Notes under the pieces: model-generated
What the model saw: only the letters and a program-made list of their open reading frames with translations
What the model was told of the DNA's origin: nothing
The model's database searches: none
Translations under genes and position numbers: made by a program
DNA from: Sneathiella sedimenti
GTDB lineage: Bacteria > Pseudomonadota > Alphaproteobacteria > Sneathiellales > Sneathiellaceae
DNA: 64,000 nt
Assembly: GCF_017313765.1 (NCBI RefSeq)
Contig: NZ_JAFLNC010000002.1
Location: forward strand, 124,001 to 188,000
Reading direction: 5' to 3'
In this document: one piece after another, positions 8,029 through 29,297 of the stretch
Layout of the letters: each line of letters opens with the position of its first letter
Position numbering within the stretch: position 1 is the stretch's first letter

Positions 8029-8029
8029 C

Positions 8030-10627: not shown

Positions 10628-10640
10628 CCCGGGTATTGAA

Positions 10641-10818: not shown

Positions 10819-11004
10819 CGAAAAATCAGGAATTCAGACTGCTTATTACTCAAGATTTATGACTGGCAACACCAGGGTGTGCCGATAATTCACTGCATTA
10901 TTTATGAGCATTTCAGTCTAGTAATTAATCAATAATCGCGTAATAGCAGTGACTTAAATGATAATTTCTATAAAAATGTAACTACTATAGTAGTAAATAC
11001 GACA

Positions 11005-11021: not shown

Positions 11022-11091
11022 GTGTTTTCCGGGATTGGCCGGCTGTCGCCGAGCTGACACTGGAAGGCATTTATCAGGAAGGATGGAGAAA

Positions 11092-12297
11092 ATGGTGAAG
11101 GGGTTTTTAAATCGTCTCAAGTTGGCGACCGCCGCGGTGGGCGTGGTCACTCTCGGCTTGGTGACGCAAGGTGTAGCGGCGGATGGTGTTGTAAAGATCG
11201 GTGCTCCCTTGGCGCTTTCCGGTGGTCTCGCGGCGGAAGGGGCAAAACAGAAGCTCGCATATGATCTGTGGCTTGCGCGGGTTAATGCGGATAGCGGCAT
11301 CAATGTCGGTGGCGTGAAGATGCCGGTGGAGCTGATCACTTATGACTATCAGACCGACGGCAAGCGGGCCAGCCAGCTGGCCGAGAAGCTGATTATTGAT
11401 GATAAGGTTGACTTTTTAACCGCTCCATTCGGGTCCGGGCATTCCAAGATCACCGCTGGGGTGGCGGAACGATACGGCATTCCAATTATTGCAGTGGCAT
11501 CTTCCGAGCCAGTCCATAACCAGGGCTTCAAGAACCTCTTTGGAACCCTCGCACCATCTGGTGGCCTAATTGACGGCATGCTGGATTTGTTCCTGAAAAA
11601 GAAACCAGACACAAAGAAAATCGCCATCTACGGCCGAGATGACGTTTTTCCAAAAATCATGGCGACCCTGATGTCGAAGGGGGCGACCGCACGCGGCCTT
11701 GAGGTCGTTTATGAGGAGCTGTACCCGGTCGGAACGCTGGATCACGCGACGGCTACGGTAGGTATGCGCTCCGCCGAGCCGGACTGGATTTATGTCACCG
11801 GATATACAGAAGATCTGGTGCTGGTCCGCAAGCAGATGGCAGAGCAGGGCGCCAGCGCGCCAATCATTACGATGATTACCGGCCCGGCATATCGTGAGTT
11901 TGTCGAAAACCTTGGTCCGCTTGCGGAAAACATCACGAGCGCAACATGGTGGCATTATTCCGCTGCCTATACCGGCGACGATGTGTTCGGTACGACACAG
12001 GCGTTCTATGATGCGGTTAAAGACGCCTCTGGTGAAGAGCCGGACTATGTTCACGCATCCTCTGCCGCTGCTATGATCGCCCTGCAAAAAGCAATTGAAA
12101 CAGCAGGATCCCTGGACAGGGATGCGGTTCGCAAAGCACTTCAAGAGCTTAAAATCCAGACGTTCTATGGTCCCATAAGTTTTCGTGAAGACGGCCTGAA
12201 CGATAACCGCAATCTTCCCATTATCCAGATTCAGGATGGCAAGCCAGTTATTTTGGCTCCTGCTGATCTTACAACGTCGGAAATGCGGTTGAACTAG
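11092..12297 (+). CDS. Periplasmic binding protein of a Liv-type ABC importer (copy 1)
   Basis: Type I periplasmic binding protein of about 401 aa. The start at 11092 has AGGAAGG 9 bases upstream; ATG 11083 is an alternative. An N-terminal signal peptide ends near GVAA-DGVVKIG. The mature part begins with the typical VKIGAPLALSGGLA strand and has the DYQTDGKRA loop. It is a close paralogue of the protein at 13531: both share GRDDVFPK and MITGPAYREF-like segments. Liv-family proteins bind branched amino acids, urea, amides or aromatic acids, and the ligand is unknown here. It is read from a sigma-54 promoter and is followed by the PhyH gene. Confidence 0.9.
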   Translation: MVKGFLNRLKLATAAVGVVTLGLVTQGVAADGVVKIGAPLALSGGLAAEGAKQKLAYDLWLARVNADSGINVGGVKMPVELITYDYQTDGKRASQLAEKLIIDDKVDFLTAPFGSGHSKITAGVAERYGIPIIAVASSEPVHNQGFKNLFGTLAPSGGLIDGMLDLFLKKKPDTKKIAIYGRDDVFPKIMATLMSKGATARGLEVVYEELYPVGTLDHATATVGMRSAEPDWIYVTGYTEDLVLVRKQMAEQGASAPIITMITGPAYREFVENLGPLAENITSATWWHYSAAYTGDDVFGTTQAFYDAVKDASGEEPDYVHASSAAAMIALQKAIETAGSLDRDAVRKALQELKIQTFYGPISFREDGLNDNRNLPIIQIQDGKPVILAPADLTTSEMRLN

Positions 12298-12322
12298 TAT
12301 CTCGAGATCAAGGATTACAATA

Positions 12323-13150
12323 ATGAGTGGATACCTGACACCAGAGGAAGTGGCGGCTTTCGAGCGTGATGGATACTTTATGAAGAAGCGAGCAATTTCA
12401 GAAGCCCATGCGTTGGATTGCCGCCGCCGACTTGAGGCGATGGAAGAGAGCCTTCAGGAGGAATGCAACAAGCGCATGAAAATCAAAGCGCATGTTGTCT
12501 CCCCCTGGATGGTCGATTTGGCGCGTAACCCGATTATTCTGGATGCGGTTGAATCGCTTCTCGGTCCAAATATCATGCTATTTGGCTCTTCCATGTTTGC
12601 AAAGGCCGCGCAGAGCGACAGGTTCGTGTCCTGGCATCAGGATTCAGCCTACTATGGTTTATCGCCGAATGACTCGGTGACGGTCTGGCTTGCCTTTACG
12701 CCCAGTAATAAGGGAAATGGGGGGCTTCGCGTACTTCCAGGATCGCAGCAAGGCGATAATATGGAGCATGACGAAACCTATGACCCCAAGAACCTTCTTG
12801 CAAAAGGTCAGACAATTCGTGGCGTGGATGACGATAGAGCCGTTTATCTGGAATTGGAGCCGGGTGAGTTTTCCATCCATCATGTCAAGACAGCCCATGG
12901 CAGCCTTGGTAATTTTTCCGATGATCGCCGGATCGGATTGGCATTTTTCTATATCGGAGCTCATGTGGACTCTACACTCGGGCGACGCACCGCACTGCAG
13001 GTTCGCGGAGAGGATCAGTTTAATTACTGGGATGAGGATCCACTGCCACGCTATGACATGGATCCGGTCACCCTCGATTTCCTCACCAATATGTGGACGC
13101 AGTACCAAAGCAAGGAGGTCCAGCAAGCAGCGAAGGCTGGTAAACTCTAA
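12323..13150 (+). CDS. Phytanoyl-CoA dioxygenase (PhyH) family protein
   Basis: A 275-aa Fe(II)/2-oxoglutarate oxygenase. The metal ligands are visible: H105 and D107 in FVSWHQDSAYYGL and H192 in TAHGSLGNFSDDRR, where the following Arg should hold 2-oxoglutarate. GGLRVLPGSQ is a standard PhyH segment. Family members hydroxylate very different small molecules, so no substrate is named. It lies 25 bases after the binding-protein gene, in the same sigma-54-driven unit, and a strong terminator follows, so binding protein and oxygenase form a two-gene transcript. The imported ligand may be its substrate, which is inference. Confidence 0.88.
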   Translation: MSGYLTPEEVAAFERDGYFMKKRAISEAHALDCRRRLEAMEESLQEECNKRMKIKAHVVSPWMVDLARNPIILDAVESLLGPNIMLFGSSMFAKAAQSDRFVSWHQDSAYYGLSPNDSVTVWLAFTPSNKGNGGLRVLPGSQQGDNMEHDETYDPKNLLAKGQTIRGVDDDRAVYLELEPGEFSIHHVKTAHGSLGNFSDDRRIGLAFFYIGAHVDSTLGRRTALQVRGEDQFNYWDEDPLPRYDMDPVTLDFLTNMWTQYQSKEVQQAAKAGKL

Positions 13151-13254
13151 CTGCTTTTTACAGGGCATTTAATTGAATTAATTGCGCAAAACTTCCAATC
13201 AGAAGTACAGCGCTAAGCAACTACATAGCTGGATACGTTTATTCGGTGTTTGGG

Positions 13255-13297
13255 AAAAGTGGGCGGGTCGTACGACAGAAAACCGCCCACTTTTTTT
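13255..13297 (+). terminator. Rho-independent terminator after PhyH
   Basis: AAAAGTGGGCGG (13255-13266) pairs with CCGCCCACTTTT (13283-13294), and seven T follow the stem start. It ends the binding protein-PhyH transcript before the second sigma-54 promoter. The rest of the 13151-13530 gap holds a CATGATCATG palindrome (13342-13351) and the promoter at 13442. Confidence 0.88.
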
Positions 13298-13441
13298 GTG
13301 CGAAATTCGATTTCCTCCATCCCGACTTTCGTTGCTCATTTCATGATCATGCGAACAAAAAATGGCTAAAAATTAGACAAATTTCAATGCCTTAAAACCT
13401 CCTGTCTTAAAATTTCGGTTATGATAGTTGTAGTTACGACT

Positions 13442-13458
13442 TTGGCATATCTCTTGCT
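13442..13458 (+). promoter_or_regulatory. Sigma-54 (-24/-12) promoter for the second binding protein
   Basis: TTGGCATATCTCTTGCT, again with GG and GC 10 bases apart. The upstream 17 bases match those at 11005 in about 14 positions. The pair of near-identical promoters suggests duplication of promoter plus gene and shared control. Confidence 0.74.
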
Positions 13459-13530
13459 AGTTCTTGGGCGAGACACTGCCTTGGACACCGCCGTCCGGGG
13501 ATTTATTAGGTAAGAAAGAAAGGGATGGTT

Positions 13531-14745
13531 ATGGAAATGACACTCAAAAGAAGTTTGACGGTCGCCGCCGTGGCAATGGGTATGGCGATGGCCGGAAGCA
13601 TGAGCGTCGCCGCTGCGGATGATGATACGCTGGTGATCGGTGCGCCCCTGGCCTTGACGGGTGGCTTGGCCGATGAAGGGAAGAAGCAGAAGGACGTCTG
13701 GAAGCTGTGGCTCGATAAAATCAATGCAGCCGGTGGTATCGATGTGGCCGGCAAGAAAATGCAGGTCAAATTCGTTGAATATGACTATCAGACGGATGGC
13801 AAACGCGCCGGACAGCTGGCTGAAAAACTGATTACCGATGATGGTGTGGATGTTCTGATGGCGCCTTTCGGCTCCGGTCACACGAAAATCATTGCCGCCG
13901 TGGCAGAACGTTATCAGGTCCCGATGCTGGCCTGCGTTGCTTCCTCCGTTTCCGTTTATGACCAGGGATTTAAATATCTCTTTGGAACCTTGGCGCCCAA
14001 TACTGGCATGACGGAATCCATGGTCGAATTCTTTAAGGAGAAAAATCCAGACCTGAAGAAGGTCGCGGTTTATGGCCGGGATGACGTGTTCCCGAAATCC
14101 ATGGCAACGGCCTTGGCGAACTCAGCAGAAACTGGCGGCCTCGATGTTGTGTATAACGAACTTTACGCCGTTGGTACAATGGATCACTCAGCGGCTATTT
14201 CTGCCATAAAATCGGCGGACCCGGATTGGGTTTACATGACCGGCTATACGCAGGACCTGATCCTGGGTCGCAAGCAGCTGGCTGATATGGGCGTAAGCGC
14301 CCCGATCGTCACCATGGTGACGGGGCCGGCCTATCGTGAATTCACTGAAGGCCTGGGGAAACTGGCCGACGGGATCACAAGTTCGACCTGGTGGCATCAC
14401 TCAACAGCCTACACCGATGCAGTTGGGGCATGGAGCTCCACCGCTGATTTCTATGAAGACTTCACAGCCGCGTATAAATCTGATCCGGATTATATAGCTG
14501 CGTCATGTGCCGCAGCGGCGGACGTTCTTGTGAATGCTGTTAAGGTCGCGGGTTCCAAGGATAAACAGGCGGTGCGCGATGCTTTGGCAGCAACGGATAT
14601 CCTGACATTCTATGGCCCAATTGACTTTGGCGACAACGGAATGAATCAGGGCCGGGAAATGCCCATCATTCAGGTGCAGGGAGAAGACATTAAAGTTCTC
14701 TACCCCGAGTCAATCGTGAACGCTGACATGAAAATGATCAAGTAA
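13531..14745 (+). CDS. Periplasmic binding protein of a Liv-type ABC importer (copy 2)
   Basis: Type I periplasmic binding protein, about 404 aa, with a signal peptide ending near SVAAA-DDDTL. The mature start VIGAPLALTGGLADEG parallels copy 1. Shared segments include DYQTDGKRAGQLAEKLI and VYGRDDVFPK. ATG 13531 has AGGG upstream; ATG 13525 and ATG 13537 are possible too. This copy is followed, after a hairpin, by the permease and ATPase genes, so it is the main partner; copy 1 may widen the ligand range of the same transporter. Ligand unknown. Confidence 0.9.
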   Translation: MEMTLKRSLTVAAVAMGMAMAGSMSVAAADDDTLVIGAPLALTGGLADEGKKQKDVWKLWLDKINAAGGIDVAGKKMQVKFVEYDYQTDGKRAGQLAEKLITDDGVDVLMAPFGSGHTKIIAAVAERYQVPMLACVASSVSVYDQGFKYLFGTLAPNTGMTESMVEFFKEKNPDLKKVAVYGRDDVFPKSMATALANSAETGGLDVVYNELYAVGTMDHSAAISAIKSADPDWVYMTGYTQDLILGRKQLADMGVSAPIVTMVTGPAYREFTEGLGKLADGITSSTWWHHSTAYTDAVGAWSSTADFYEDFTAAYKSDPDYIAASCAAAADVLVNAVKVAGSKDKQAVRDALAATDILTFYGPIDFGDNGMNQGREMPIIQVQGEDIKVLYPESIVNADMKMIK

Positions 14746-14760
14746 GCCTCGTCCAAATCT

Positions 14761-14797
14761 GACCGGTCGGGTAACGGAAAAGAAACCCCGACCGGTC
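14761..14797 (+). terminator. Intercistronic hairpin between binding protein and permease
   Basis: GACCGGTCGG (14761-14770) and CCGACCGGTC (14788-14797) form a strong stem without a T-tract. In Liv-like operons such structures usually attenuate downstream expression or stabilise the upstream mRNA, giving excess binding protein. An equivalent hairpin lies at 46334. Confidence 0.7.
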
Positions 14798-14853
14798 TCA
14801 CGACACAGTAATTTACTTCGCCCACCTGCGAGCATTTCTGGGAAACAATCACA

Positions 14854-15714
14854 GTGGACATCATACAAATACTACTCAACGGCATTGTACTGGGATCACT
14901 CTACGCCTGTATCGCCATCGGCTTTTCGCTGGTCTGGGGCGTGTTGAATATCATCAATATGCTGCATGGGTCTTTCATCATTCTCGGTGGATACCTCGCG
15001 TTTTTTGCGTGGCAATATTCGCACATAAACCCCATTTTCCTGCTGCCTATCATCGCCACGTTGCTGTTCGGCCTGGGTTACCTTTTACAATATTTTTTCA
15101 TCAACAAGGTTGTCATGTCACCTGTGCTGACGACCCTGACGCTGACCTTTGGTCTCGACATGATCCTCTACAATCTGATGACCGTCTTTTTCACAGCCAC
15201 TCCGCGAAGGGTAACCCTAGACCTCGGGTCATTGAACCTGGGGGATATGTACCTTCCCGTTGACCGTTTGATGGGCATGGGGCTGGCGCTGCTCCTGACC
15301 GGCTTGCTTTTCCTGGTGATGCGGGCGTCAAAAATCGGTCGGGCAATCGTCGCCGTCCGCATGGACCGGCAGGCCGCCACTTTGATGGGCATTCGCGTGA
15401 ATAACGTTTATGCCATCACCTTTGGAATAGGGGCTTTCATGGCCGGTGCCGCGGGGGTCATCTTTTCCTTGGTTTTCCCGATCACGACGAACCTGACCGG
15501 CACCTTCCTTGGCAAGGCCTTTGTCATCTGCGTGATTGGCGGCCTTGGCAGTGTGCCCGGCGCCTTGATCGGCGGGATAGCCTTGGGCCTCATTGAGAGC
15601 TTCGCCGGCTACACGATCGGCCCGCAAAACGCGACGACGGTTGGCTTTGTCCTCATGTTATTTCTTTTGATTGTCCGGCCAACAGGTCTTGTTGGCGTTA
15701 AGGGATACGAGTAA
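14854..15714 (+). CDS. Liv-type ABC permease, LivH-like
   Basis: A 286-aa inner-membrane permease with about eight hydrophobic segments. The opening LLNGIVLGSLYACIAIGFSL and the LNIINMLHGSFIILGGYL loop are family hallmarks, as is VIGGLGSVPGALIGGIALGL near the C-terminus (the ATPase-coupling region). The start is GTG at 14854 with a weak GGGAAA upstream. Its TAA shares one base with the next ATG. It forms the membrane channel with the LivM-like partner. Confidence 0.92.
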   Translation: MDIIQILLNGIVLGSLYACIAIGFSLVWGVLNIINMLHGSFIILGGYLAFFAWQYSHINPIFLLPIIATLLFGLGYLLQYFFINKVVMSPVLTTLTLTFGLDMILYNLMTVFFTATPRRVTLDLGSLNLGDMYLPVDRLMGMGLALLLTGLLFLVMRASKIGRAIVAVRMDRQAATLMGIRVNNVYAITFGIGAFMAGAAGVIFSLVFPITTNLTGTFLGKAFVICVIGGLGSVPGALIGGIALGLIESFAGYTIGPQNATTVGFVLMLFLLIVRPTGLVGVKGYE

Positions 15715-16688
15715 TGAAACAGTTCCTTTATTTTGGCGCCTTCGCGCTCTGGATCGTGATGATTGCGGCCACACCACTGTTGGCTGACAATTACACAATC
15801 CGGGTTGCTATCTCCATTGCCATGTTCTCGGCAATGGCGGTTTCCTGGAATTTTATCGGTGGCTTTACCGGTTATCCCTCCTTCTCGACGGCGGCCTTTT
15901 TCGGCCTTGGATGCTATGCTGGCGCCCTGGCGCAGCGGAACGGTGTTCCCTTGGTCCTGGCCTGGGTCTTTGCGACATTGTTTGTGGCAGTCTTTGCCGC
16001 GATGCTGGGGGCGATTATCCTGCGCCTGAAGGGGCATTATTTTGCTATCGGCTCTATCGCGATTGTCGACCTGACACGTTTGATAACTTCATCATGGGGA
16101 AGCTTGACAGGGGGCGGCGATGGATTGAATGTCCCGCTTTTGCAAGGCAATCCGCAGGAGGTTTCGGCACTTGTCCTGTACGTCATGCTGACCATTTTGA
16201 TTATTGCCTTCCTGACGTCCATCTATGTGGATCGATCGCGGCTTGGCTTCGGGCTTAAATGCATCAGCCAGAATGAAGACGCGGCGGACATGGTCGGGGT
16301 CAATACGACCTCCTTCAAGATCGTTGCCTATACCTTGTCGGCCGTGTTCTGCGGTGCGATTGGGGCGGTCTATGCCTCCTGGGTGGGTTATATCGACCCA
16401 ACTGACAGTTTCTCCATCCTGCTGACCCTGAAAGTGCCGGTTATGGTGTTGCTGGGCGGCGCAGGCACGTTGCTTGGTCCGGTTTTGGGCGCCGGCGTGT
16501 TCGTTCTGCTGGAAGAAGTCTTCTGGGCCAACTTCCTTGAATGGAACCGGGCGATCCTCGGTGGGATTATCGTATTCCTGATCTTCTTCCTGCCCAACGG
16601 TTTGCTGAAAATCCAGTATCGCGATCTGTTCAAAAAGCTGATGGACAAAATAGGTGATGCCCCCAAACAAGTGGAGAAGAGTTCATGA
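15714..16688 (+). CDS. Liv-type ABC permease, LivM-like
   Basis: A 324-aa multi-pass membrane protein. VSWNFIGGFTGYPSFSTAAFFGLGCY and LRLKGHYFAIGSIAI match the LivM group, as does the VLLGGAGTLLGPVLGAGVFV coupling segment. It partners the LivH-like permease. The start overlaps the livH-like stop by one base (TAATG), and the stop overlaps the ATPase start (ATGA), so the four-gene set is translationally coupled. Confidence 0.92.
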   Translation: MKQFLYFGAFALWIVMIAATPLLADNYTIRVAISIAMFSAMAVSWNFIGGFTGYPSFSTAAFFGLGCYAGALAQRNGVPLVLAWVFATLFVAVFAAMLGAIILRLKGHYFAIGSIAIVDLTRLITSSWGSLTGGGDGLNVPLLQGNPQEVSALVLYVMLTILIIAFLTSIYVDRSRLGFGLKCISQNEDAADMVGVNTTSFKIVAYTLSAVFCGAIGAVYASWVGYIDPTDSFSILLTLKVPVMVLLGGAGTLLGPVLGAGVFVLLEEVFWANFLEWNRAILGGIIVFLIFFLPNGLLKIQYRDLFKKLMDKIGDAPKQVEKSS

Positions 16689-17443
16689 CTGAAATTCTGA
16701 GACTGGAGAATGTCAGCAAAAGTTTTGGCGGTAACCTTGCAGTCAATGACGTCTCATTTAGCCTTGAGGAAGGCGAGATCATTGGCCTGATCGGTCCTAA
16801 CGGTGCTGGCAAAACTACATTGGTCAACCTGATAACAGGCGTACACCCCCTTACCTCCGGCAAAGTGATTTTCGCGGGTGAGGATGTGAGTAATCAACAG
16901 GCATATCAGGCAGCAAGGCGAGGGCTGGCAAGAACTTTTCAAATTGTACAACCTTTTCCCAATATGACGGTTCTTGAGAATGTTGCCGCAGGCGCCTTGT
17001 TTGGCGGGGGTACCGGCTCGGTTCAGGAGGCTATGGCTTTGGCTCATGACGAATTGAAGTTCGTTGGCTTGGCTGCTGTTGCCGATACGCCGGCATCGTC
17101 ACTGGCATTGCCCAACCGGAAGCGACTGGAACTTGCAAAGAGTCTGGCAATGCGTCCGAAGTTTCTTTTGCTGGACGAGGTCAATGCAGGCCTAAATGCC
17201 TCTGAAATTGACGGTGCTCTCGAATTGATCCGCAAGATCGCGGCAAGGGGGGTTACAATCCTGATTATCGAGCATCTGATGAAGGTCGTGCTGTCAATTT
17301 CCCAAAGAATTCTGGTGTTGCATCATGGGGAGCTGATCGCGCAAGGGGATCCGCGAACGGTCATTGAAGATCCTCAAGTGGTAGAAGCCTATCTGGGTTC
17401 CAAATTTGCAGCGCGCGTTAAAGCGGAGTCTCATCATGTCTGA
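16685..17443 (+). CDS. Liv-type ABC ATPase, LivG-like
   Basis: A 252-aa cytosolic ATPase. Walker A is GPNGAGKTT and Walker B is FLLLDEVNAGL, with the switch histidine in IIEHLMKVV. The signature position is degenerate: SLALPNRKRLELA replaces the usual LSxGQ. Similar LxLPxRKRLELA forms occur in a subgroup of alphaproteobacterial LivG proteins, so it is probably functional, supported by the canonical partner LivF. It overlaps both neighbours, in operon. Confidence 0.9.
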   Translation: MTEILRLENVSKSFGGNLAVNDVSFSLEEGEIIGLIGPNGAGKTTLVNLITGVHPLTSGKVIFAGEDVSNQQAYQAARRGLARTFQIVQPFPNMTVLENVAAGALFGGGTGSVQEAMALAHDELKFVGLAAVADTPASSLALPNRKRLELAKSLAMRPKFLLLDEVNAGLNASEIDGALELIRKIAARGVTILIIEHLMKVVLSISQRILVLHHGELIAQGDPRTVIEDPQVVEAYLGSKFAARVKAESHHV

Positions 17444-18152
17444 GTCATTTCTTGAAGTTAATGGCGTTCAAGCCGGTTACGGTGACGTGCGCGTTCTGTG
17501 GGACATTTCCCTTTCGGTCAACAAGGGAGAAATTGCTTGTATCGTCGGCTCCAACGGAGCCGGCAAGACAACTCTGCTCAACACTATTTCCGGGATTGTA
17601 AAACCGACAGCGGGCAGTATCAAGCTGGAAGGGAAAGAGCTCGTTGGCGCACAGCCGGACGAAGTTTTGAGCACTGGCATCGCACATGTTCCGGAGGGGC
17701 GTCGTTTGTTCAAAGGGCTTTCGGTACAGGATAACCTGATGCTCGGGGCCTATTTGCGCAACGACCGGGAAGCGATCAAGGAAGATCTGGAGTTTGTCTA
17801 TGAAATCTTTCCGAGATTGAAAGAACGGGCGACACAGGATGCAACGACAATGTCCGGCGGAGAACAGCAAATGTGCGCCATCGGACGGGGCATCATGTCC
17901 AGACCGCGCCTGTTGATGATCGACGAACTGTCTCTTGGGTTGGCGCCGCGACTTGTCGACCGTTTGAGCGAAACCCTGCTGGAAATCAATAAGGCCGGTC
18001 TCACCATCCTTCTGGTGGAGCAGGATGTGATGACAGCGTTTGAGATTGCGCAGCATGGCTTTGTTATCGAGACGGGTCGTGTTTCCATTTCCGACACGAC
18101 AGAGGCCCTCGGCGATAATCCGAAGATCAAGGAAGCCTATATGGGAATTTAA
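17436..18152 (+). CDS. Liv-type ABC ATPase, LivF-like
   Basis: A 238-aa ATPase with a canonical Walker A (GSNGAGKTT), signature (MSGGEQQMCAIGRGI), Walker B (LLMIDELSLGLAP) and a VEQD switch region. ATG 17436 lies inside the end of the LivG-like gene. It is the last gene of the importer operon and runs convergently into the phosphoribosyltransferase gene, with the two 3' ends overlapping by 4 bases. Confidence 0.9.
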   Translation: MSESFLEVNGVQAGYGDVRVLWDISLSVNKGEIACIVGSNGAGKTTLLNTISGIVKPTAGSIKLEGKELVGAQPDEVLSTGIAHVPEGRRLFKGLSVQDNLMLGAYLRNDREAIKEDLEFVYEIFPRLKERATQDATTMSGGEQQMCAIGRGIMSRPRLLMIDELSLGLAPRLVDRLSETLLEINKAGLTILLVEQDVMTAFEIAQHGFVIETGRVSISDTTEALGDNPKIKEAYMGI

Positions 18153-18895
18153 GGATGATCGGTGTCAATTGTTTCGGCAATTGGCACCCATCCCTCGTCG
18201 GCGCGTTCAAACAGCGGCGCAGCAATAACACTTCTGACCTTGCTCGCCATTCCCGGCATTGCACTTTCCAGTTTGCTTTTCCACAAAACGCCCTGGCGCA
18301 TCGCAACGAGTATTCCCACCACGTCACAATCAATGCGTTGAAGGAGCTTCAGAACAGATACGATGGTAGATCCGCTGGAAATAGCATCATCCACGATGAC
18401 AACGCGTTTTTTCTTCAGCCGCGGCAGCATATTTGGGTCCAGGAAGATTTTCTTCGTCTTGTCCGGGCTGGTAATGGAATGAACCGGTTCCGCGAACTCA
18501 TCTGCGTACCAGAATTTGCGGGAATACCCGAGGGGAATGAAGTTCTGCTGGCCAAGCCCATCGGCAATCATGGGTGCAAAGGCGAGACCCAGTGTCGGCA
18601 GGCCGACAATCTGGTCAGGGTCAAAGGACTTCGCGATCTCCACCATCGCTGCCGACAAGGAGTTTATGACCGGAAAACTTGCCTGATTGGCGATAAGGGA
18701 AGCAACGGCGCGATCCCCTTCGGGCAATTTGCGCAAGGGCAGCAACAACGCGCGTCCATCGGGCAGGGGGGCGGGGTACCCATACTGATACGGAGGCTCC
18801 TGTGGTATTTTTGGATCACCGGCGGGGATCAGTTCCTGCCAAAAGCCGGTTGTCGGCATGATATAGTCGGAAGAATTCGGCGGCTGTTGAGTCAT
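18149..18895 (-). CDS. Phosphoribosyltransferase family protein
   Basis: A 248-aa protein with the PRPP-binding signature VVIVDDAISSGST (residues 165-177), the two adjacent acids and the Gly/Ser loop of type I phosphoribosyltransferases. Upstream, IVGLPTLGLAFAP resembles the small-molecule-proximal loop of adenine/xanthine-type enzymes. The 80-residue N-terminal extension is longer than in simple purine enzymes, so either base salvage or a regulatory PRTase-fold protein is possible. It is divergent from the Rieske gene with only 33 bases between starts. In this locus it may handle a purine-like product (inference). Confidence 0.82.
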   Translation of the reverse strand: MTQQPPNSSDYIMPTTGFWQELIPAGDPKIPQEPPYQYGYPAPLPDGRALLLPLRKLPEGDRAVASLIANQASFPVINSLSAAMVEIAKSFDPDQIVGLPTLGLAFAPMIADGLGQQNFIPLGYSRKFWYADEFAEPVHSITSPDKTKKIFLDPNMLPRLKKKRVVIVDDAISSGSTIVSVLKLLQRIDCDVVGILVAMRQGVLWKSKLESAMPGMASKVRSVIAAPLFERADEGWVPIAETIDTDHP

Positions 18896-18928
18896 CTGTA
18901 AAACTCTTCGTTAGGACATCGCGATAAA

Positions 18929-19279
18929 ATGAAAAAAGAGACAGTTGAATGGCGAACAGTCGCTTCGATTGAGGACATAGCCGCCGATCGGCCCTTGGAG
19001 ATTATCATCGATGAAACCTTCCTTCTCCTCGTGAAAGTAAAAGGCGACATCAAGACCTATCAGGGCTTGTGCCCCCATCAGTTTGCCAAACTATCCATGG
19101 GTACAATTTCCGAAGGTTTTATACATTGTCCGCGTCATAAAGCATGTTTTGATGCTTACAACGGCAAGTGTGGGCCCGGTTGGCAACTACCAGCGCTCCG
19201 CCAGTATCATATCCGTGTGGACGCAGGGGAGGTGGCCATTGCATATCCTCTGTCGGTGATATCTCCCGGTAGTGAATGA
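18929..19279 (+). CDS. Rieske-type [2Fe-2S] ferredoxin-like protein
   Basis: A 116-aa soluble protein with the Rieske motif C48-x-H50 (LCPHQ) and C67-x2-H70 (CPRHKACFD), binding a [2Fe-2S] cluster with two Cys and two His. There is no membrane anchor or catalytic oxygenase domain, so it resembles Rieske ferredoxins or small subunits such as NirD. Its partner is not evident; the molybdenum hydroxylase encoded nearby would be a plausible redox neighbour. The 3' end lies one base from the end of the convergent MarR-DUF1116 gene. Confidence 0.9.
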   Translation: MKKETVEWRTVASIEDIAADRPLEIIIDETFLLLVKVKGDIKTYQGLCPHQFAKLSMGTISEGFIHCPRHKACFDAYNGKCGPGWQLPALRQYHIRVDAGEVAIAYPLSVISPGSE

Positions 19280-19280: not shown

Positions 19281-20951
19281 TTAGCCCTCCGGCCAGGGAG
19301 ACACACCGCGCCCGATCAGGCCAGTCGTTCCGGTTCTCTCCACCATACCCAGATTGACCCCCAGGCATGTCCGGGGTCGCGTCAAGTCCAGACCGACCAT
19401 TATGCTTTTATCCGACAGGGCAGGATGCGGGCCGATGAACGGGGCATGGGCGGCGGGGCTGAAAAAATCGGGATGAACATGGTCGCGATATCCTTCGGCC
19501 AGACTAGGCGTAGACCGGAGACAAGCCGCCCCAAAGCCAAGGGCGTCGATGACGGCACTATCGCCAATCGCGGGCAAGGCTTTGGCCATTTCCTGACCTT
19601 CGAATTTGACGCCCACGGGCGGTAGCGCCGGACGGGTAATCCAACTGTCTGGATTTGATGCCAGCTTATAGCCCATCTCCAAACCGTTACCGCCACAGGC
19701 AACAACCATATCACTATCGGCAATAGCCGCGCCGGCGCCAATCATCAGAGACGAAGCCGCCATAATGATATTCAGGGCGAACTGACCCGCCGACGCGAGA
19801 TAATCGTTTGTTTCCGCATCATCGGTATCTGGAAACAGGGTGCGCACCTTTTCTTGCGCGGCGGCAACCTGACCATGCAGATCATCGCCATTTTTTAAAC
19901 CGTGATCCAGTATCGGCAGCAACGCTATGGGCGTCGTGATCATGTCCGCCAGTTTCGGGCCAATATGTGTCGACAGACGGCGGAGCAGGGCAAGCCCCTC
20001 CGGATGCCCGTTTCCAAGCCGGAGCGCATAAGGCGCGGGCCCATCATTCAAGGGAGAAAAGCGGCGATTGCCGGGAGCAGCCTGATCCACAACTTCCAGA
20101 CAATAAACACTGGGACCGACGATAAAGGCCAAGGGTGTCACCACGTCGAAATCCTGCGCTGGACGAAGGTGAAGATCGCCATTTTGTAGCTTGGCGAATA
20201 CGTCTTCCTCGGATGTTGCCCAGCCTTCAAGGCTTGCCGTCGCGACAATCGAATGACGCATGGGTTTGGGTATATTATTAAAATCAGAGAAGGGAGGGCC
20301 AGCATGCAGCAAGGTCCGATCCGGCAACGTCGGGATAAGTTCTGCAAGTTTGGCAATACGCTGTAATATGGGTTCAACCGCAATCAGTTTTTGATAGGAT
20401 TTCTGCGTGGTCGCAGAGGATTTTGAGATGCTCTCTGCACTTCTGTCGCCAGACGTCACAAACGGGATTTTTTGGTCACCGTTAGGCGTGTTCGCATTGA
20501 TTATCTGGGTCATCATTTCGATAAGGCGAGTACGGTCCTCCGGTGCGAGGCTTTCAACTGTCCGTTCATGCGCGCGTTGCGCCTTTTCATCGAGAATATC
20601 GAGGATATGCTCCCCTTCTTCGGTAAGCGAGGTGAGGCGAACGCGTCTGTCGCTGTTGGAAACGCGACGCTTTATGAGACCCCGTCGTTTCAAACGATCC
20701 AGAATATCCGTCATGTTGGTCTTATCGATCGCAACGGCCTTGGCCAAAGTCGTTTGGTCCATGGCGCCGCCTTGCTGAAGCGCCGACAAGACAGAATACA
20801 TCACTGGTGTAATGTTCTGATCACCGCATTCCAGCGCAAAAAGGGCCGTATGAATTTGATGTAATCGTCTAATCAGAACTCCCGGCCGCGATGTCAGGGA
20901 TCCATTACGCCAAGGATCGGAGGAGGCAGTTTGTGTATTGTCATGGGTCAT
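19281..20951 (-). CDS. MarR-family regulator fused to a DUF1116 (AllG/YlbE-like) domain
   Basis: A 556-aa two-domain protein. Residues about 25-150 are a winged helix of the MarR type (TTLAKAVAIDKTNMTDILDR, then the wing SDRRVRLTSLTEEG). Residues about 185-556 match DUF1116: LLHAGPPF, PMRHSI, FSPLNDGPAPYALR, the GQFALNIIMAASSL helix, CGGNGLEMG, PAIGDSAVIDALGFGA and a closing GLIGRGV. DUF1116 proteins (AllG in E. coli) are part of oxamate carbamoyltransferase. Where I recall a His-rich P-CHHH stretch in enzymes, this protein reads PAQDFDVVTP, so the domain may sense rather than catalyse. It sits downstream of the molybdenum hydroxylase genes on the same strand. Confidence 0.85.
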   Translation of the reverse strand: MTHDNTQTASSDPWRNGSLTSRPGVLIRRLHQIHTALFALECGDQNITPVMYSVLSALQQGGAMDQTTLAKAVAIDKTNMTDILDRLKRRGLIKRRVSNSDRRVRLTSLTEEGEHILDILDEKAQRAHERTVESLAPEDRTRLIEMMTQIINANTPNGDQKIPFVTSGDRSAESISKSSATTQKSYQKLIAVEPILQRIAKLAELIPTLPDRTLLHAGPPFSDFNNIPKPMRHSIVATASLEGWATSEEDVFAKLQNGDLHLRPAQDFDVVTPLAFIVGPSVYCLEVVDQAAPGNRRFSPLNDGPAPYALRLGNGHPEGLALLRRLSTHIGPKLADMITTPIALLPILDHGLKNGDDLHGQVAAAQEKVRTLFPDTDDAETNDYLASAGQFALNIIMAASSLMIGAGAAIADSDMVVACGGNGLEMGYKLASNPDSWITRPALPPVGVKFEGQEMAKALPAIGDSAVIDALGFGAACLRSTPSLAEGYRDHVHPDFFSPAAHAPFIGPHPALSDKSIMVGLDLTRPRTCLGVNLGMVERTGTTGLIGRGVSPWPEG

Positions 20952-21008: not shown

Positions 21009-22178
21009 TTAGCGAAACCTCAAGGTCCTTTTTATCCAGCCCATGAACACTGACGCCATCAGAGACAGGCCATTCAGATTGCGGGGCTGCGTTTCGTGGG
21101 GATCCTCCCCCTTGGCAAGGGCTTCGATTGAGGCGGCAACCTGATCCAGAATGCGATCTGCAATCTCTGCGACGAGCGCGGGCCGACTGAATTGTGAAAG
21201 CGGACCCGTCAGTTTGTAGACCATATCCAGTGTAAGTTCCGATCCCTTTTCCGGAAGGCCGGTCATTTTGAAATCAAGCATCCCATCCAGTTGCGAACGG
21301 CTGAGCCCATCCTTGCCACGACCGATAACATGACCGGACTTCTCGGCCTCATTCAGGTCCATCCTGGCGGTTCCGGCAAAGGCAGCCTTGATCGGGCCCA
21401 TGGAAACGGCGCATTTTCCCTGCAACAGGTTGCCGTCCGTGATGCTGTCGAGTTGGCCGCCCGGAATGCAAGATACGATCTTTTCCGGGTCGGACACAAT
21501 GGCCCAGATGTCAGACGCAGAGACATTGAAACGTATCGTTCGTGAGAGAGAGGGTGCACCCGCAAGGGACGACTTCGCTGGTATGCTGGCTGGGACGTTT
21601 CTTTCTGCCGCAGCAGGAGACGCAACGCCTGAAGCGGTCCCGATTGACCCAGCGGCACTTTTCTCGGTTTTCTGCGGGGTTCTTGCGTGAGGTTGCACTT
21701 TGGCCGCCGGAGGATTGTTTTCCAAAACATCCATAATCGCGGCCACAATGCCGGCATATCCTGTACAACGGCATAAATTGCCCGAGAGTTCCTTGCGGAC
21801 ACGTTCCGCATCCGCATCGGGCAGTCGCCTGACAATATCATAACCCGTCACCAGCATTCCGGGCGTGCAATAACCACATTGAAGGCCATGGTGTCGTTTG
21901 AATGCATCGCGCAGTGCTTTCATCAAGGGATCATCATCAAACCCTTCTACGCTTCGAACCTCGGCACCCTTGCAGGATGCAGCGAGAGTAATACAGGATC
22001 GTGTCGGACGTCCGTCAACAAATACGGTACAGGCGCCGCAAACGCCCTGTTCGCATCCCAGATGAGTCCCGCTCAGGAGCAGATCTTCCCGCAAAAAATC
22101 AGCCAGATGGGTCCGGGGTTCCGTGAGCTCGGAAACTGGCGCCCCATTGACGACAAGGTCGACTGTCGTTTCGGTCAT
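21009..22178 (-). CDS. Molybdenum hydroxylase [2Fe-2S] small subunit fused to a CoxG-like SRPBCC domain
   Basis: A 389-aa fusion. Residues 1-155 are the iron-sulfur subunit: plant-type cluster cysteines C42, C47, C50 and C62, and the second cluster C101, C104, C136 and C138 (CGYCTPG, NLCRCTGY). After an Ala/Pro linker, residues about 205-360 are an SRPBCC domain of the CoxG type (carbon monoxide dehydrogenase subunit G: IVSDPEKIVSCIPGG, GKCAVSMGPIKAAF). A short hydrophobic/basic tail could be a membrane contact. The small subunit carries electrons from molybdopterin to FAD; CoxG-like proteins assist maturation or membrane attachment. It overlaps the FAD-subunit gene by 4 bases. Confidence 0.92.
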   Translation of the reverse strand: MTETTVDLVVNGAPVSELTEPRTHLADFLREDLLLSGTHLGCEQGVCGACTVFVDGRPTRSCITLAASCKGAEVRSVEGFDDDPLMKALRDAFKRHHGLQCGYCTPGMLVTGYDIVRRLPDADAERVRKELSGNLCRCTGYAGIVAAIMDVLENNPPAAKVQPHARTPQKTEKSAAGSIGTASGVASPAAAERNVPASIPAKSSLAGAPSLSRTIRFNVSASDIWAIVSDPEKIVSCIPGGQLDSITDGNLLQGKCAVSMGPIKAAFAGTARMDLNEAEKSGHVIGRGKDGLSRSQLDGMLDFKMTGLPEKGSELTLDMVYKLTGPLSQFSRPALVAEIADRILDQVAASIEALAKGEDPHETQPRNLNGLSLMASVFMGWIKRTLRFR

Positions 22179-23002
22179 GCTGAAAACTCCTTGGCTACTT
22201 TTATCTGCTCGAGGGCTCTGGAAAGCGCAACTGCATGGAGATGAAGCGCCGTTGCAGGCTGATCCGGAATTGCCACCGACAGGGCTTCCATCGGGGATTT
22301 GCTTCCGTCGAGAATAGTTTCGGGGTTCGAGATCAACGCGGGCTGACGGCCCAGTGCTCCAATGGTAATGCGGGTACGATTGTTTGCCGGGTCAATAAGT
22401 ATAGCTGCGCTGGCTTTTGCAAATTCCCCGACTTGCCGAGTGTATTTCCAATAAGACCAGCGCGCGCCTTGACCCGGTTTCGGTACATCTATCGCCGTCA
22501 GAATGTCCTCTGGACCCAGCGCAGTGCTATAGGGGCCAGTGATGAATTCCTCCATCGGAATTGTGCGCAGTGTTGCGTCTGGGGCAGCCCCTTTTACAAC
22601 AGCCATTGCACAAAGCCCGGTCATTACGATCACCCAGTCCGCTGCGGGATCCGCATGGGCAAGACTGCCACCAATTGTTCCGCGATTTCGGACGGCCCGA
22701 TAGGCAATATTGGCTGCTGCATTACGCATCCAGTGACCTGTCGGGTCCGGAACCTCCCCGTCCTCAATTTCCGCATGGGTAACGGCGGCGCCAAATCGGA
22801 CATAATTTTCATGTTCCTCAACTGCGCGTAATTCCGGCACTCGGGAGATATCAACCAGTCCGGCTGGTCGGGTCAATCGCAAGTTCAACATCGGCCCCAA
22901 AGATTGGTTTCCGGATACCAGCTTGTTCTGTCCCCCAAGAAGGGCGCTCTGGGCGTCGGAAAGGGATTGTGCAACCGCAAAGTCAAACAGTGCTGGCTTC
23001 AT
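22175..23002 (-). CDS. Molybdenum hydroxylase FAD-binding medium subunit
   Basis: A 275-aa protein of the CoxM/XdhB type. FAD-binding segments are visible: AGGQNKL-like LLGGQNKLVSGNQSL and the pyrophosphate-binding RNRGTIGGSLAHADPAAD. It passes electrons from the iron-sulfur subunit to an acceptor. It overlaps both neighbouring genes (large subunit upstream, small subunit downstream), so the complex is made from one message. Confidence 0.93.
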   Translation of the reverse strand: MKPALFDFAVAQSLSDAQSALLGGQNKLVSGNQSLGPMLNLRLTRPAGLVDISRVPELRAVEEHENYVRFGAAVTHAEIEDGEVPDPTGHWMRNAAANIAYRAVRNRGTIGGSLAHADPAADWVIVMTGLCAMAVVKGAAPDATLRTIPMEEFITGPYSTALGPEDILTAIDVPKPGQGARWSYWKYTRQVGEFAKASAAILIDPANNRTRITIGALGRQPALISNPETILDGSKSPMEALSVAIPDQPATALHLHAVALSRALEQIKVAKEFSA

Positions 23003-25377
23003 GCTACGTCTCCTTCAGTTGTTTTGGAGAATTCTGCCTGAGCAATTGCTGACAACACCCGCTCCGGCGTCATGGGAACCTCCGCTACTTCCGCTCCGAT
23101 GAAGGAAAGGGCATCATTAACGGCATTTGCAATTGCCGCCGGCGGACCAATTGCCCCGCTTTCTCCAATACCTTTCTGACCAAACCTGCTCAGAGGGGAA
23201 GGGGTTTCCATATGCTCAATCCGGATGTTCGGCAGATCGGAGGCGAGCGGCAAATGATAATCCGCAAGGGTTGAGGCTAGCGGCTGGCCGGAGGCATCAA
23301 AGCACATCTCCTCGAACAGGGCCGTACCGATTCCCTGTGCGGCGCCGCCATAGACCTGACCATCCACAACCATCGGGTTGATCATCGTGCCGGCATCCTC
23401 AACAATGACATAGTCGAGCAATCGGATATGACCTAGATCCATATCAACCTCGACCTTCACCGCATGGCAGGCATAGGAAAAGGTGCCCGTATCCTTGGTG
23501 GTTTTATAACCTGCGACGACATCCAGACCTCTTGGATCGACATCATCGGGTAGTAACTGGGGTTTGAGGTACCAGGTTCGGGCTACCTCCTCAATACTGA
23601 TGGTGCTCCTACCGGCAGATGCCATACCACCTTCGAGTTTGATATCCGCAGGATCAGCCTGCATTAAATGTCCCGCGATTTTACGGATACGCTCCCCCAG
23701 CAACTCACAGGCCGACCCGACCGCCCCGCCTGCCATGACAATGCAACGCGATCCCCAGGTGCCGGTGGAGTAGGGGGTATAAGCCGTATCCCCGTGAACA
23801 AGTTTGATTTTTTCCGGGTCAATTCCTATTTCAGTATTGGCGATTTGGGCCAGGGTGGTTTCCAGACTCTGACCGTGGCTGTGAACCCCAACCCGTAATT
23901 CAAGTCCACCGTCAGGCGTCAGACGGGCAGTGGCCTGCTCAAACCCCGGGACCATCGGAATTCCCCAGCCGTGATAGACTGAAGTTCCGTGTGCTCCTTG
24001 TTCGCAAAATATTGACAGACCGACGCCGATCCGGGTGCGTCCGGTTTGGCCCTTTTGCTCTTTGCGGATGCCGTCCAAATCGATTGCGGTAACAGCGCGT
24101 TTCAAGGCCTCTGGATAATCGCCACTATCGAAGAATTTGTTGGTTATATTGGTAAAGGGCATCTGTTCCGGCTGCACGAGATTGCGGGCTCGAATGGCTT
24201 CGGGCGTAATCTTTAACTCTCTTGCGATACCGTCCAGCAAAACCTCCAATGCAAAACACACCCCGGTCCGGGCGACGCCCCTAAAGGGTAGGATGGGCGG
24301 TTTGTTGGTTGCAACTGACCAGGTCTTGCAACGAAATCCCTTCATAACATAGGGGCCCGGTAATATGCTGGCGACCTGCGCAGCCTCAAGGCAGGCAGAG
24401 AAAGGATAGCTGGAATAAGCGCCGGAATCGACGATGGCCGTACAGTCCACAGCCAGCAATTCACCATCCGCTTTTGCATAGCCTGTAATTTCATAGCTAT
24501 GTTCCCGGCAATTGGCTCCCGCGATCAAATGTTCACGCCGATCCTCAATCCATCGGATTGGGCGGTCGAGCTTCATGGCGAGGTAACAGGCGCAAACCTC
24601 TTCGGCAAGCAGGATGCCTTTATAACCGAATCCGCCCCCCACATCCGGCGCAATCACCCGAATTTGGCCATGATCCATATTCAGGCAATCCGCAAGGCCA
24701 GTGCGCACAATATGGGGCATTTGCGTTGCGGAGTAGAGAGTAAGGAGTTCCAGGTTCCTGTCCCAGACCGCGATAAGGCCGCGCCCTTCAATGGGCGCCA
24801 TACATTGCCGTGCTGTCTTGAAGCTGCGCTTGATAATAACGTCAGCCTCTGCGATAGCCGCCTCAAAATTGATATCGGCGTTGCTTTCAAGGAAGGAATT
24901 TTCCTCCCAATCCTCATGCAGCAAGGGGCTCTCCTTGTCACGAGCTTTGGTCATGTCATGGACCGCCGGCAATTCATCAAAGACAACATCGATTTTTTCT
25001 GCCAGGTCTTCGGCTTTTGCTCTGCTATCGGCAAGACAGGCTGCAATTGGCTCGCCTACATGGCGAACTTTCTCATCTGCCAGTATGGGCTGGGTTGAAG
25101 GGCGAAAACCCGGCAGCCCGGATACGGCTCGAATCCCGGATACGCCGTCAAGATCCCGGCCAAAAAACACCCAGCTGTCCGTCTGGTCCGGTTTCGCTTG
25201 GGAGATTATTCGGGCGTGAGCAAGCGGGCTCCTTAAAAAGGCCAACTCCAGCATGCCCGGCATCCGTATATCGGCAACATAGCGCCCCTTGCCATTCAAA
25301 TAGCGATCATCTTCTTTTCGCATAAGGCGTGCGCCGATACCCTTGCTGCGCTCTTTGACATCCTGACCGTCCGCCAT
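22999..25377 (-). CDS. Molybdenum hydroxylase large subunit (xanthine dehydrogenase/CoxL family)
   Basis: A 792-aa molybdopterin-cytosine-dinucleotide-type subunit from ATG 25377 (AAGG upstream); the frame stays open to 25488. GKGRYVADI opens the hammerhead domain, DVGGGFGYKG binds the cofactor, and GIGESGAIGPPAAIANAV near the C-terminus holds the catalytic glutamate. The active-site loop reads PFRGVARTGVCF, not the form I VAYRCSFR of true CO dehydrogenase, so CO is unlikely. The expected reaction is water-derived hydroxylation of an aromatic N-heterocycle or aldehyde. In this locus a purine- or pyrimidine-like ring is the natural candidate (inference). Confidence 0.92.
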   Translation of the reverse strand: MADGQDVKERSKGIGARLMRKEDDRYLNGKGRYVADIRMPGMLELAFLRSPLAHARIISQAKPDQTDSWVFFGRDLDGVSGIRAVSGLPGFRPSTQPILADEKVRHVGEPIAACLADSRAKAEDLAEKIDVVFDELPAVHDMTKARDKESPLLHEDWEENSFLESNADINFEAAIAEADVIIKRSFKTARQCMAPIEGRGLIAVWDRNLELLTLYSATQMPHIVRTGLADCLNMDHGQIRVIAPDVGGGFGYKGILLAEEVCACYLAMKLDRPIRWIEDRREHLIAGANCREHSYEITGYAKADGELLAVDCTAIVDSGAYSSYPFSACLEAAQVASILPGPYVMKGFRCKTWSVATNKPPILPFRGVARTGVCFALEVLLDGIARELKITPEAIRARNLVQPEQMPFTNITNKFFDSGDYPEALKRAVTAIDLDGIRKEQKGQTGRTRIGVGLSIFCEQGAHGTSVYHGWGIPMVPGFEQATARLTPDGGLELRVGVHSHGQSLETTLAQIANTEIGIDPEKIKLVHGDTAYTPYSTGTWGSRCIVMAGGAVGSACELLGERIRKIAGHLMQADPADIKLEGGMASAGRSTISIEEVARTWYLKPQLLPDDVDPRGLDVVAGYKTTKDTGTFSYACHAVKVEVDMDLGHIRLLDYVIVEDAGTMINPMVVDGQVYGGAAQGIGTALFEEMCFDASGQPLASTLADYHLPLASDLPNIRIEHMETPSPLSRFGQKGIGESGAIGPPAAIANAVNDALSFIGAEVAEVPMTPERVLSAIAQAEFSKTTEGDVA

Positions 25378-25622
25378 ATCAACCTTTCCCTTGCAAAAAC
25401 CGGCACCCAACTGCCTAGAATTAACGCGATGCCCTGACGGGAGAGAGATGTCGGAGATCTTCTCAAACCCACAGATATTGCATTGCACAAAATCACATTA
25501 ACGGAATTTAAAAAATAATTGTAGATATTATTTTAGCTATTACAACTTTTTTTCTTTTCCCATTATGCGCCGCGGGATATATTCCCTTTAACGCGTTGTC
25601 ACAAAGTAAAAGGAAGCCATCG
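25378..25622 (+). promoter_or_regulatory. Divergent intergenic region, hydroxylase versus amidohydrolase
   Basis: 245 bp between two divergent start codons, AT-rich at 25495-25560. It must hold promoters for both units. I see no sigma-54 element and no clear dyad; a weak TTGTCA-like box near 25600 is not convincing. Confidence 0.35.
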
Positions 25623-26888
25623 ATGAGCAACATGAAACCCCTTGATGTCGTGCTGGAGAACGGCACATTAATTGATCCGGCAACTGGATTGAGCGGACAA
25701 TATGACATCGGGATTCAGGACGGCATCATCACGGCAGTGAGCGAAAGCCTCAAATCCGTAGCGGCGGAAGAGCGGATGGATGTCACCGATCATCATGTCA
25801 TTCCCGGAATGATCGACACCCACGCTCATGTGTATGAACATGTGACCGGAAAATTCGGTTTGTCACCCGATTTAGTCGGGGTCTATTCCGGCGTGACGAC
25901 TCTGATCGATCAGGGTGGGCCGAGTTGCATGACGATAGGGGGTTTCCGCAAATTTATCGCGGAACCTTCGGCGAGCCGCGTCCTTGCCTTTATTTCAGCC
26001 TATCTTGTCGGCGGCCTTGAGGGTCATTTGTATCCTGATCTCTATGGACCGAACGGTGTCAATGCCGAGCATACTATCTCTGTGGCAAAGAAAAACCTCG
26101 ATATCGTCAAAGGGATAAAAGCCCATGCGGAAATTGGCGGCCAGTCGCGTTGGGGCATGGAAGTCATCAAGATCGGACAGGAAATCGCGACCGCTGTTAA
26201 TCTCCCGCTCTATATCCATCTAGGTCAGCTTTGGCCGACAGCCGACAGCGCGCCAATCCCGTCATCAGAGGAGCTTATTAGAGAATTGCTGCCGATCATG
26301 AAGGAAGGGGATGTGCTGGCGCATCCATTCACCCGTCATCCCGGAGGATTTGTTTCCGATGAAGGGGAGATCCATCCGATTTTGCTCGAAGCTGTGAAGC
26401 AGAAACAGATTCTGGTGGATGTCGGGCATGGCTCGCATTTCAGTTTTGAAGTCGCCCGCCGCATTCTGGATGCCGGTATCATACCTTATACGCTCGGAGC
26501 GGATATGCATGGCTATAATGTCGCTATTCCCGACGCTGCCGATAAATCTGAACGCGCTGCAAATCCGTTTTCCGGCGTTGCGCCGTTTAACCTGACGATT
26601 GCCATGTCGGAGCTCTTGCATCTCGGTGTTGCATTAGAACAAGTCATTGAGATGGTTACCTCTCATCCAGCAAAATTACTGCGAATGGAAGATGAACTCG
26701 GCAGCATTGCCGTGGGTCGAGAAGCGGATATCTCGGTCCTGAAAATTGAAACAGGACGCTTCAAGCTATCTGACAACAGCGGAGAAAGCGTGATCGCGGA
26801 AAAACTCATCAGGCCGACATTTTGCTTGCGTGCCGGTAAAAGATTTGATGCGACTTCAGTCTTTGTGCCTGAAGCTATTGTGGCATAA
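25623..26888 (+). CDS. Amidohydrolase/deacetylase-family metallohydrolase (dihydroorotase-like)
   Basis: A 421-aa TIM-barrel hydrolase. The metal site HxH is H67 and H69 in PGMIDTHAHVYEHV. Further ligands are likely in IYIHLG, LAHPFTRHPGG and the GADMHGYN aspartate segment; a Lys in IVKGIKAHAEIGG could be the carboxylated bridge. It closes with the family NGTLIDPATG-type composite domain at the N-terminus. It groups with dihydroorotase/cyclic amidase-like and D-amino-acid deacetylase-like enzymes of unknown substrate. The ATG at 25623 has AGGA upstream. It reads toward atzF (convergent). Opening a cyclic amide would fit the biuret pathway beside it. Confidence 0.87.
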   Translation: MSNMKPLDVVLENGTLIDPATGLSGQYDIGIQDGIITAVSESLKSVAAEERMDVTDHHVIPGMIDTHAHVYEHVTGKFGLSPDLVGVYSGVTTLIDQGGPSCMTIGGFRKFIAEPSASRVLAFISAYLVGGLEGHLYPDLYGPNGVNAEHTISVAKKNLDIVKGIKAHAEIGGQSRWGMEVIKIGQEIATAVNLPLYIHLGQLWPTADSAPIPSSEELIRELLPIMKEGDVLAHPFTRHPGGFVSDEGEIHPILLEAVKQKQILVDVGHGSHFSFEVARRILDAGIIPYTLGADMHGYNVAIPDAADKSERAANPFSGVAPFNLTIAMSELLHLGVALEQVIEMVTSHPAKLLRMEDELGSIAVGREADISVLKIETGRFKLSDNSGESVIAEKLIRPTFCLRAGKRFDATSVFVPEAIVA

Positions 26889-29167: not shown

Positions 29168-29297
29168 TCATTGCCTCCAACACTGTATCTGGTGCCGCCG
29201 TGCGACGTCATTGCCGCGACTGGCGCTGAAGCCGCCGGGTTTGACAGAGCTTCGATGCATATCAAGCGGAAAGTGAAGCGGTTCTGCATTGTGGATT

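Follow-up and report, generated by a model that had tools for sequence, protein, structure and literature searches.

One gene of Sneathiella sedimenti encodes a 556-aa protein in which a MarR-type DNA-binding domain is joined to a complete AllG/DUF1116 domain, and this fused gene lies in a conserved cluster of catabolic genes built around a molybdenum (Mo) hydroxylase. With moderate confidence, we read the protein as a BpsR-like repressor with a ligand pocket of its own that has merged with a DUF1116 pathway enzyme still under constraint, one that would need neither AllF nor AllH. The analysis covered a stretch of 64,000 nucleotides, here called the window, together with related loci in other genomes; the features of the window are collected in Table 1.

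A MarR domain and a complete DUF1116 domain in one protein

In Pfam profile searches the N-terminal half of the protein matches PF01047 (3.6e-12; 46.4 bits against a cut-off of 24.6) and shows the winged-helix MarR fold, with helix 1 at low confidence in the structure model. The C-terminal half matches PF06545 (1.5e-37; 129.6 bits against a cut-off of 27) and is predicted to form a complete AllG fold with a pLDDT of 95. It retains residues H216, E242, R311, D356, H359, N394, N422, D464 and S465. The DUF1116 structure 3clq superposes on the modelled half over 374 residues, and no fold analogue besides 3clq was found in this comparison, which by its nature excludes none. The linker between the two halves is variable in sequence, and its first part has a low pLDDT and is modelled as disordered. 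That MarR and DUF1116 share a single 556-aa protein had been proposed in a sequence-only reading of this DNA and is borne out both by the Pfam matches and by open frames in five genomes; the DUF1116 assignment of the C-terminal part likewise held in the profile search, and the domain is complete.

Table 1. Features of the window, with positions counted from its first nucleotide
Feature	Position	Strand	Remark
PhyH-type dioxygenase	12323..13150	+	found in some of the clusters
Liv-type ABC importer: binding protein, two permeases, two ATPases	13525..18152	+	conserved cluster member
Phosphoribosyltransferase PRK06031	18149..18895	-	conserved cluster member
Rieske-type ferredoxin	18929..19279	+	conserved cluster member
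MarR-DUF1116 fusion gene	19281..20951	-	556 aa
Complete lone-type DUF1116/AllG-fold domain, residues 181-556	19284..20411	-	profile and model
Linker, residues 156-180	20412..20486	-	occupies the place of stop codon and spacer in unfused relatives
MarR winged-helix domain, residues 20-155	20487..20894	-	R28/H34 align with the 6-hydroxynicotinate-binding Arg26/His32 of BpsR
Mo hydroxylase 2Fe-2S subunit fused to CoxG domain	21009..22178	-	family match
Mo hydroxylase FAD subunit	22175..23002	-	family match
Mo hydroxylase large subunit	22999..25488	-	first gene of the presumed operon, the fusion gene being the last
Candidate promoter/operator TTGTA-N17-TACAA	25519..25545	-	between amidohydrolase and Mo hydroxylase
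Amidohydrolase/deacetylase, PRK09237 type	25596..26888	+	divergent from the Mo hydroxylase genes

Occurrence of the fusion

The whole fused frame is present in five of the 24 Sneathiella genomes searched, the window's own included. A search for further MarR-DUF1116 fusions, which the sequence-only reading had called for, thus succeeded within the genus, where four more genomes carry relatives 80-83% identical to the protein described here, but yielded none outside Sneathiella among the sampled genomes, 25 from the order, 385 from the class and 398 from the phylum. Nor was the fusion found in the one additional genome of the family. The search also took in 61, 4 and 14 genomes from the orders of the relatives; all of these sets are samples and they overlap. 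Nine additional long DUF1116 open frames showed no second Pfam domain, a 703-aa frame in genome G067 lying outside that scan. Among the 15 records listed, out of 402, in a search of plasmids, one match from Azospirillum spans both parts in one piece, and a second (H14) is also covered over more than 80%, at 24.6% identity. We rejected the Azospirillum match as a fusion, the record showing two same-frame genes with a short spacer, that is, an unfused arrangement. Literature searches, with most subscription journals outside their scope, found no publication naming both MarR and DUF1116 and nothing relevant on trigger enzymes with a MarR fusion or on MarR-enzyme fusions.

The sequence-only reading had also considered that sister genomes might show two separate genes. 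Unfused neighbouring genes for MarR and DUF1116 do occur in 15 loci recovered from whole genomes and plasmids, sister lineages included, but the fusion itself is an open frame in five genomes.

Origin and constraint of the fusion

A tree built from 53 DUF1116 domains groups the five fusions in a single clade (99/94), which lies within the unfused sequences; adding the domains of loci L037 and L039 gives a clade of seven (100/99). The canonical AllG group, represented by 19 of the aligned rows (14 linked to FdrA and five without FdrA in the flank), sits on a separate branch (98/96); L069, which had been grouped beforehand as lone, falls on the canonical side.

The junction itself is informative. 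Four unfused relatives (L037, L038, L039 and L040) have the two parts as separate genes next to each other. The MarR frame of L037 and L039 stops at a TGA, followed after 39 nt by a same-frame GTG that is preceded by AGGAG, and L039 has in addition a TTG 6 nt ahead of that GTG. All five fusions have no stop and a linker two codons longer, and the aligned GTG place reads ATC, ATA or TTA, so the old DUF1116 start is gone. Given both the nesting in the tree and this junction sequence, the fusion is, as far as the genomes compared tell, derived, and arose once in this Sneathiella lineage. In-frame GTG or TTG codons do occur elsewhere in three of the five linkers; since they share no place, a separate DUF1116 product from the fusion gene appears unlikely. 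In L038 the spacer is longer and contains a second stop, and in L040 the two genes lie in different frames, and therefore the same-frame arrangement is not general among unfused loci. On an Azospirillum argentinense plasmid (L129, 1459-3192) MarR and DUF1116 are two annotated same-frame genes with a short spacer, and an arrangement of this kind seems to be the apparent precursor of the Sneathiella fusion. In our preferred reading, two adjacent and probably co-transcribed genes were joined in the ancestor of the five genomes: the stop codon of MarR disappeared along with the former start of DUF1116, and the spacer turned into a flexible linker.

Both halves are constrained. Across the ten pairs of fused genes, dN/dS was 0.016-0.11 for the MarR half and 0.04-0.13 for the DUF1116 half, rough values since dS is near saturation in many pairs. 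The linker gave 0.17-0.44 in eight of the ten pairs, with one undefined and one zero, and the unfused pair L037/L039 gave 0.047 for MarR and 0.099 for DUF1116. These values bear on the suspicion that the fusion is decaying or is an assembly error. No selective benefit is required for a stop codon to be lost, and the distribution is patchy at five of 24 genomes of the genus; the frame is nevertheless open in five genomes and dN/dS is well below 1 in both halves, and we regard decay or error as highly improbable. A neutral fusion of two working halves is possible and would be compatible with our main reading, and the retention of the fusion in five genomes may mean that coupling the halves is useful. 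The lineage offers a natural experiment, with the same regulator and pathway protein apart in sister lineages and joined in Sneathiella across a junction that can be read base by base.

DUF1116 in molybdenum hydroxylase clusters

We compared 24 distinct clusters of at least 12 kb containing a lone or fused DUF1116 gene (tblastn, E 1e-8). They were found through similarity to this protein and are not a random sample of DUF1116; L078 and L079 (from the same genomes as L034 and L033) and L036 (too short) stand outside the 24. The Mo hydroxylase large subunit is encoded in 21 of these clusters (it is absent from L082, L084 and L118), a MarR matching that of the window in 19, and a PRK09237-type amidohydrolase in 18. 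The window's own copy of the last we take to be cog3964. FdrA (AllF) or AllH lies beside DUF1116 in none of the 24, which sets these domains apart as a 'lone' DUF1116 subfamily and agrees with the earlier remark that the FdrA and DUF2877 partners are missing beside the fusion, and the gene content supports the nitrogen-compound catabolic setting that had been proposed for it.

Several further features of the neighbourhood deserve mention. The presumed operon holds a second fusion, between the 2Fe-2S subunit and a CoxG/SRPBCC domain, for which Azospirillum (L080, L085) and Caballeronia (L083) have two annotated genes. At the phosphoribosyltransferase locus two 248-aa frames overlap, one on each strand. 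The true gene is the minus frame, which matches PRK06031 with 299.9 bits and is conserved in relatives; the plus frame (18155-18901), without a family match, is its antisense shadow. Farther along, at 27010-34888, genes for allophanate hydrolase, the biuret amidohydrolase BiuH and a Bmp/PnrA-type ABC importer are grouped, a set that resembles published biuret/triuret loci (PMC12625717).

The company that DUF1116 keeps varies in an instructive way. In L075, L076, L081, L083, L119 and L121 it stands with a Mo hydroxylase, and the MarR gene is either kilobases away or not found in the stretch. Two Mo hydroxylase clusters, L122 (Methylobacterium, 6832-18531) and L123 (Geminicoccaceae, 6909-18192), are without DUF1116 and carry an alpha/beta hydrolase found in none of the 24 DUF1116 clusters; a third, L120 (Sinorhizobium), has neither. 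Possibly the hydrolase is a non-orthologous replacement of DUF1116 and a lead to its reaction, a suggestion that comes from two loci and against which L120 counts. Because DUF1116 stays with the Mo hydroxylase where no MarR is adjacent, and the hydrolase appears instead in L122 and L123, the pattern across clusters is, by gene content, that of a pathway protein and not of a ligand-binding domain belonging to a regulator.

Some relatives' clusters (L071, L080, L083, L085, L088) also encode an AtzE-related amidase with AtzH/HpxZ, which points to amide or ureide chemistry. The AtzH-like gene (HpxZ) was found in eight of 15 genomes overall and in none of the five Sneathiella genomes, and we rejected this oxalurate-pathway helper as an explanation of the cluster on the latter count. 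In the reading we favour, the DUF1116 half would carry out a step of the same pathway, probably a cleavage of the amide or ureide type. Twelve polar or Trp positions are conserved across the lone DUF1116 sequences, so a pocket is likely there, and the residues conserved in the lone subfamily are still there in the fused domain, which is under similar constraint and shows few fusion-specific changes. We know of no experiment on any member of this subfamily.

Relation to AllG and oxamic transcarbamylase

The oxamic transcarbamylase of Escherichia coli is made up of AllF, AllG and AllH together (PMC11326118). A complete operon, allH-fdrA-allG-carbamate kinase, lies elsewhere in the genome of the window, and the AllG encoded there shares 29% identity with the fused DUF1116 domain. 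FdrA and AllH occur elsewhere in the genome in this and two others of the 15 genomes with lone or fused DUF1116. In the remaining 12, among which are the genomes of the four other fusions, AllH gave no match and FdrA none above 39.1 bits, a level that we ascribe to succinyl-CoA ligase.

The residue counts refer to 36 AllG rows whose flank contains FdrA; rows lacking it in a short flank were dropped. Eleven Arg, Lys or His positions are at least 90% conserved in these FdrA-linked AllGs. Three of them (H216, R311 and H359) are kept in all 20 lone or fused MarR-linked sequences and six in only 0 to 3 of the 20; K429 is mostly conservative, and one position is half kept (Q361 in the fusions). At the 11 Asp/Glu positions, four are kept in the lone and fused sequences, three are swapped between D and E, and four are lost. 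The GDxH, NG and GDS cores are present in 34/34 lone or fused rows, and all five fusions have Gln where E. coli AllG has its invariant Arg189. The positions that were lost may have served to bind carbamoyl phosphate or to contact AllF or AllH. The fused DUF1116 thus has neither the adjacent partners nor the full set of conserved charged residues of the AllFGH system, and the earlier suggestion of oxamate or carbamoyl phosphate as its ligand finds no support here, with the partners absent from most genomes and six of the 11 cationic positions gone from nearly all sequences.

A role as the AllG subunit of oxamic transcarbamylase, acting in trans with AllF and AllH, is very improbable. The fold and Pfam family are the same, and the partners do exist elsewhere in three of the genomes; against this, most of the 15 genomes lack both, the window's genome already has a canonical AllG, and the tree separates the lone and fused sequences from the canonical group. 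DUF1116 as a family is not tied to oxamic transcarbamylase, having a divergent branch without AllF and AllH that is linked to Mo hydroxylases and amidohydrolases, and the name 'oxamate carbamoyltransferase subunit' is therefore unfounded for these genes.

The same losses could be taken to mean that the domain is not catalytic at all and serves, with no part in sensing, as a partner in structure or maturation, of the Mo hydroxylase for example, or as an oligomerisation platform. The six cationic and four acidic positions lost, the Gln at the Arg189 place and the linkage to the Mo hydroxylase large subunit all suit such a role, but the universal GDxH, NG and GDS cores and the existence of related Mo hydroxylase clusters without DUF1116 (L120, L122, L123) do not, and we think it distinctly improbable.

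The replacement of a His-rich stretch had been offered in the sequence-only reading as a sign of a sensor. This argument does not survive comparison: the same replacement is found in unfused relatives and, in part, in the genome's own FdrA-linked AllG (L077, 7657-9060, on contig 3 of genome G000), which reads PAQHLNAVGP with Gln at the place of E. coli H93. His is 94% conserved there in the 36 FdrA-linked AllGs and, given the Gln of the genome's own AllG, is dispensable for a place in an allFGH operon. The DUF1116 genes of L056-L064 are about 41-43% identical to canonical AllG, with no FdrA within the short flank covered.

A proposed BpsR-like pocket and a candidate operator

The best PDB sequence relatives of the MarR half are BpsR (6pco/6pcp) and PcaV (4fht); ligand contacts were compared with those of BpsR. 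BpsR leaves DNA on binding 6-hydroxynicotinate, the first product of nicotinate breakdown, and contacts it with three residues of one monomer (Tyr15, His23 and Arg26) and with His32 of the partner monomer (PMC6837509). By alignment, Arg26 and His32 are R28 and H34 in the MarR half, and both are invariant in 19/19 MarRs of these clusters, as is R103 in the wing. His23 is V25, and Tyr15 would fall on G17 if the offset is carried on beyond the aligned range, so that the full set of four contacts is not present. Because two of the four are not kept, the ligand is probably not 6-hydroxynicotinate itself, and the MarR half may act in the manner of BpsR but on a different ligand. Nicotinate breakdown, too, begins with a Mo hydroxylase, and the parallel with BpsR and this pathway suggests that what the MarR half senses is a carboxylated N-heteroaromatic produced by the neighbouring Mo hydroxylase.

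The dyad TTGTA-N17-TACAA occurs once in the window, where no second copy was found. In 100 shuffles it occurred with a mean of 0.02, at least once in two of them, for a pattern that had been picked after looking. Of the 19 regions inspected, 12, all of them from closer relatives, have a like box (GTTGTAA; GTAGTAAT in L037 and L039); the remaining seven have none, save one edge match in L075. The dyad overlaps promoter-like hexamers, and the element may therefore be a promoter, an operator or both; a promoter scan gave no more sites than in shuffles. In the mechanism we prefer, the N-terminal half would be a BpsR/PcaV-like repressor with its own small-molecule pocket, acting from this element on the Mo-hydroxylase operon and perhaps on the divergent amidohydrolase, and would let go of it on binding an N-heteroaromatic carboxylate, of which the Mo hydroxylase product is the likeliest candidate. 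The fusion may couple the enzyme to the operator but need not.

A closer coupling would make the protein a trigger enzyme or sensor, in which the DUF1116 half binds a pathway metabolite and signals to the MarR half, so that the fusion senses flux or substrate. Such a role would fit the single polypeptide in five genomes with both halves constrained, the adjacency of the two genes before fusion in 15 loci and the likely pocket of the lone sequences. It fits less well with the same kind of cluster lacking an adjacent MarR in six loci, with the MarR half having pocket residues of its own, with a variable linker whose start is modelled as disordered and with the few fusion-specific changes in the DUF1116 domain. 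We consider it unlikely overall, and the bifunctional trigger enzyme that the sequence-only reading had entertained is in our view a minority reading, although its single polypeptide and constrained halves stand. Its companion idea, that an enzyme domain was recruited as a sensor, we likewise do not favour: DUF1116 was already a separate gene of the cluster before the fusion, the MarR half has effector-pocket residues of its own, and the domain has retained what is conserved in the lone subfamily. Doubtful, too, is the combined picture of a young fusion, close to its origin while sister lineages still have the two genes apart, in which a catalytic pocket reports flux to MarR at its own operon, along with a partner-free DUF1116 enzyme subfamily in Mo-hydroxylase clusters.

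Comparison with known systems

Like AllG (YlbE, DUF1116), the oxamic transcarbamylase subunit, the C-terminal half matches PF06545 and has the GDxH, NG and GDS cores; the fused and lone domains differ from it in being only about 25-30% identical, in their separate branch, in a cluster without AllF and AllH, and in changes at E. coli H93, K238, R258 and H385. The Enterococcus faecalis structure 3clq, of unknown function, is a one-domain chain with 23% identity to the fused domain. The MarR regulators BpsR (of Bordetella) and PcaV are likewise chains without a second domain, whereas here a 376-residue enzyme-like domain follows. Regulator-enzyme fusions and trigger enzymes are familiar from PutA, NadR and MarR-GNAT proteins, which also combine a DNA-binding and an enzyme-type part in one polypeptide; the Sneathiella fusion differs from these in being lineage-restricted and in having come from two adjacent genes.
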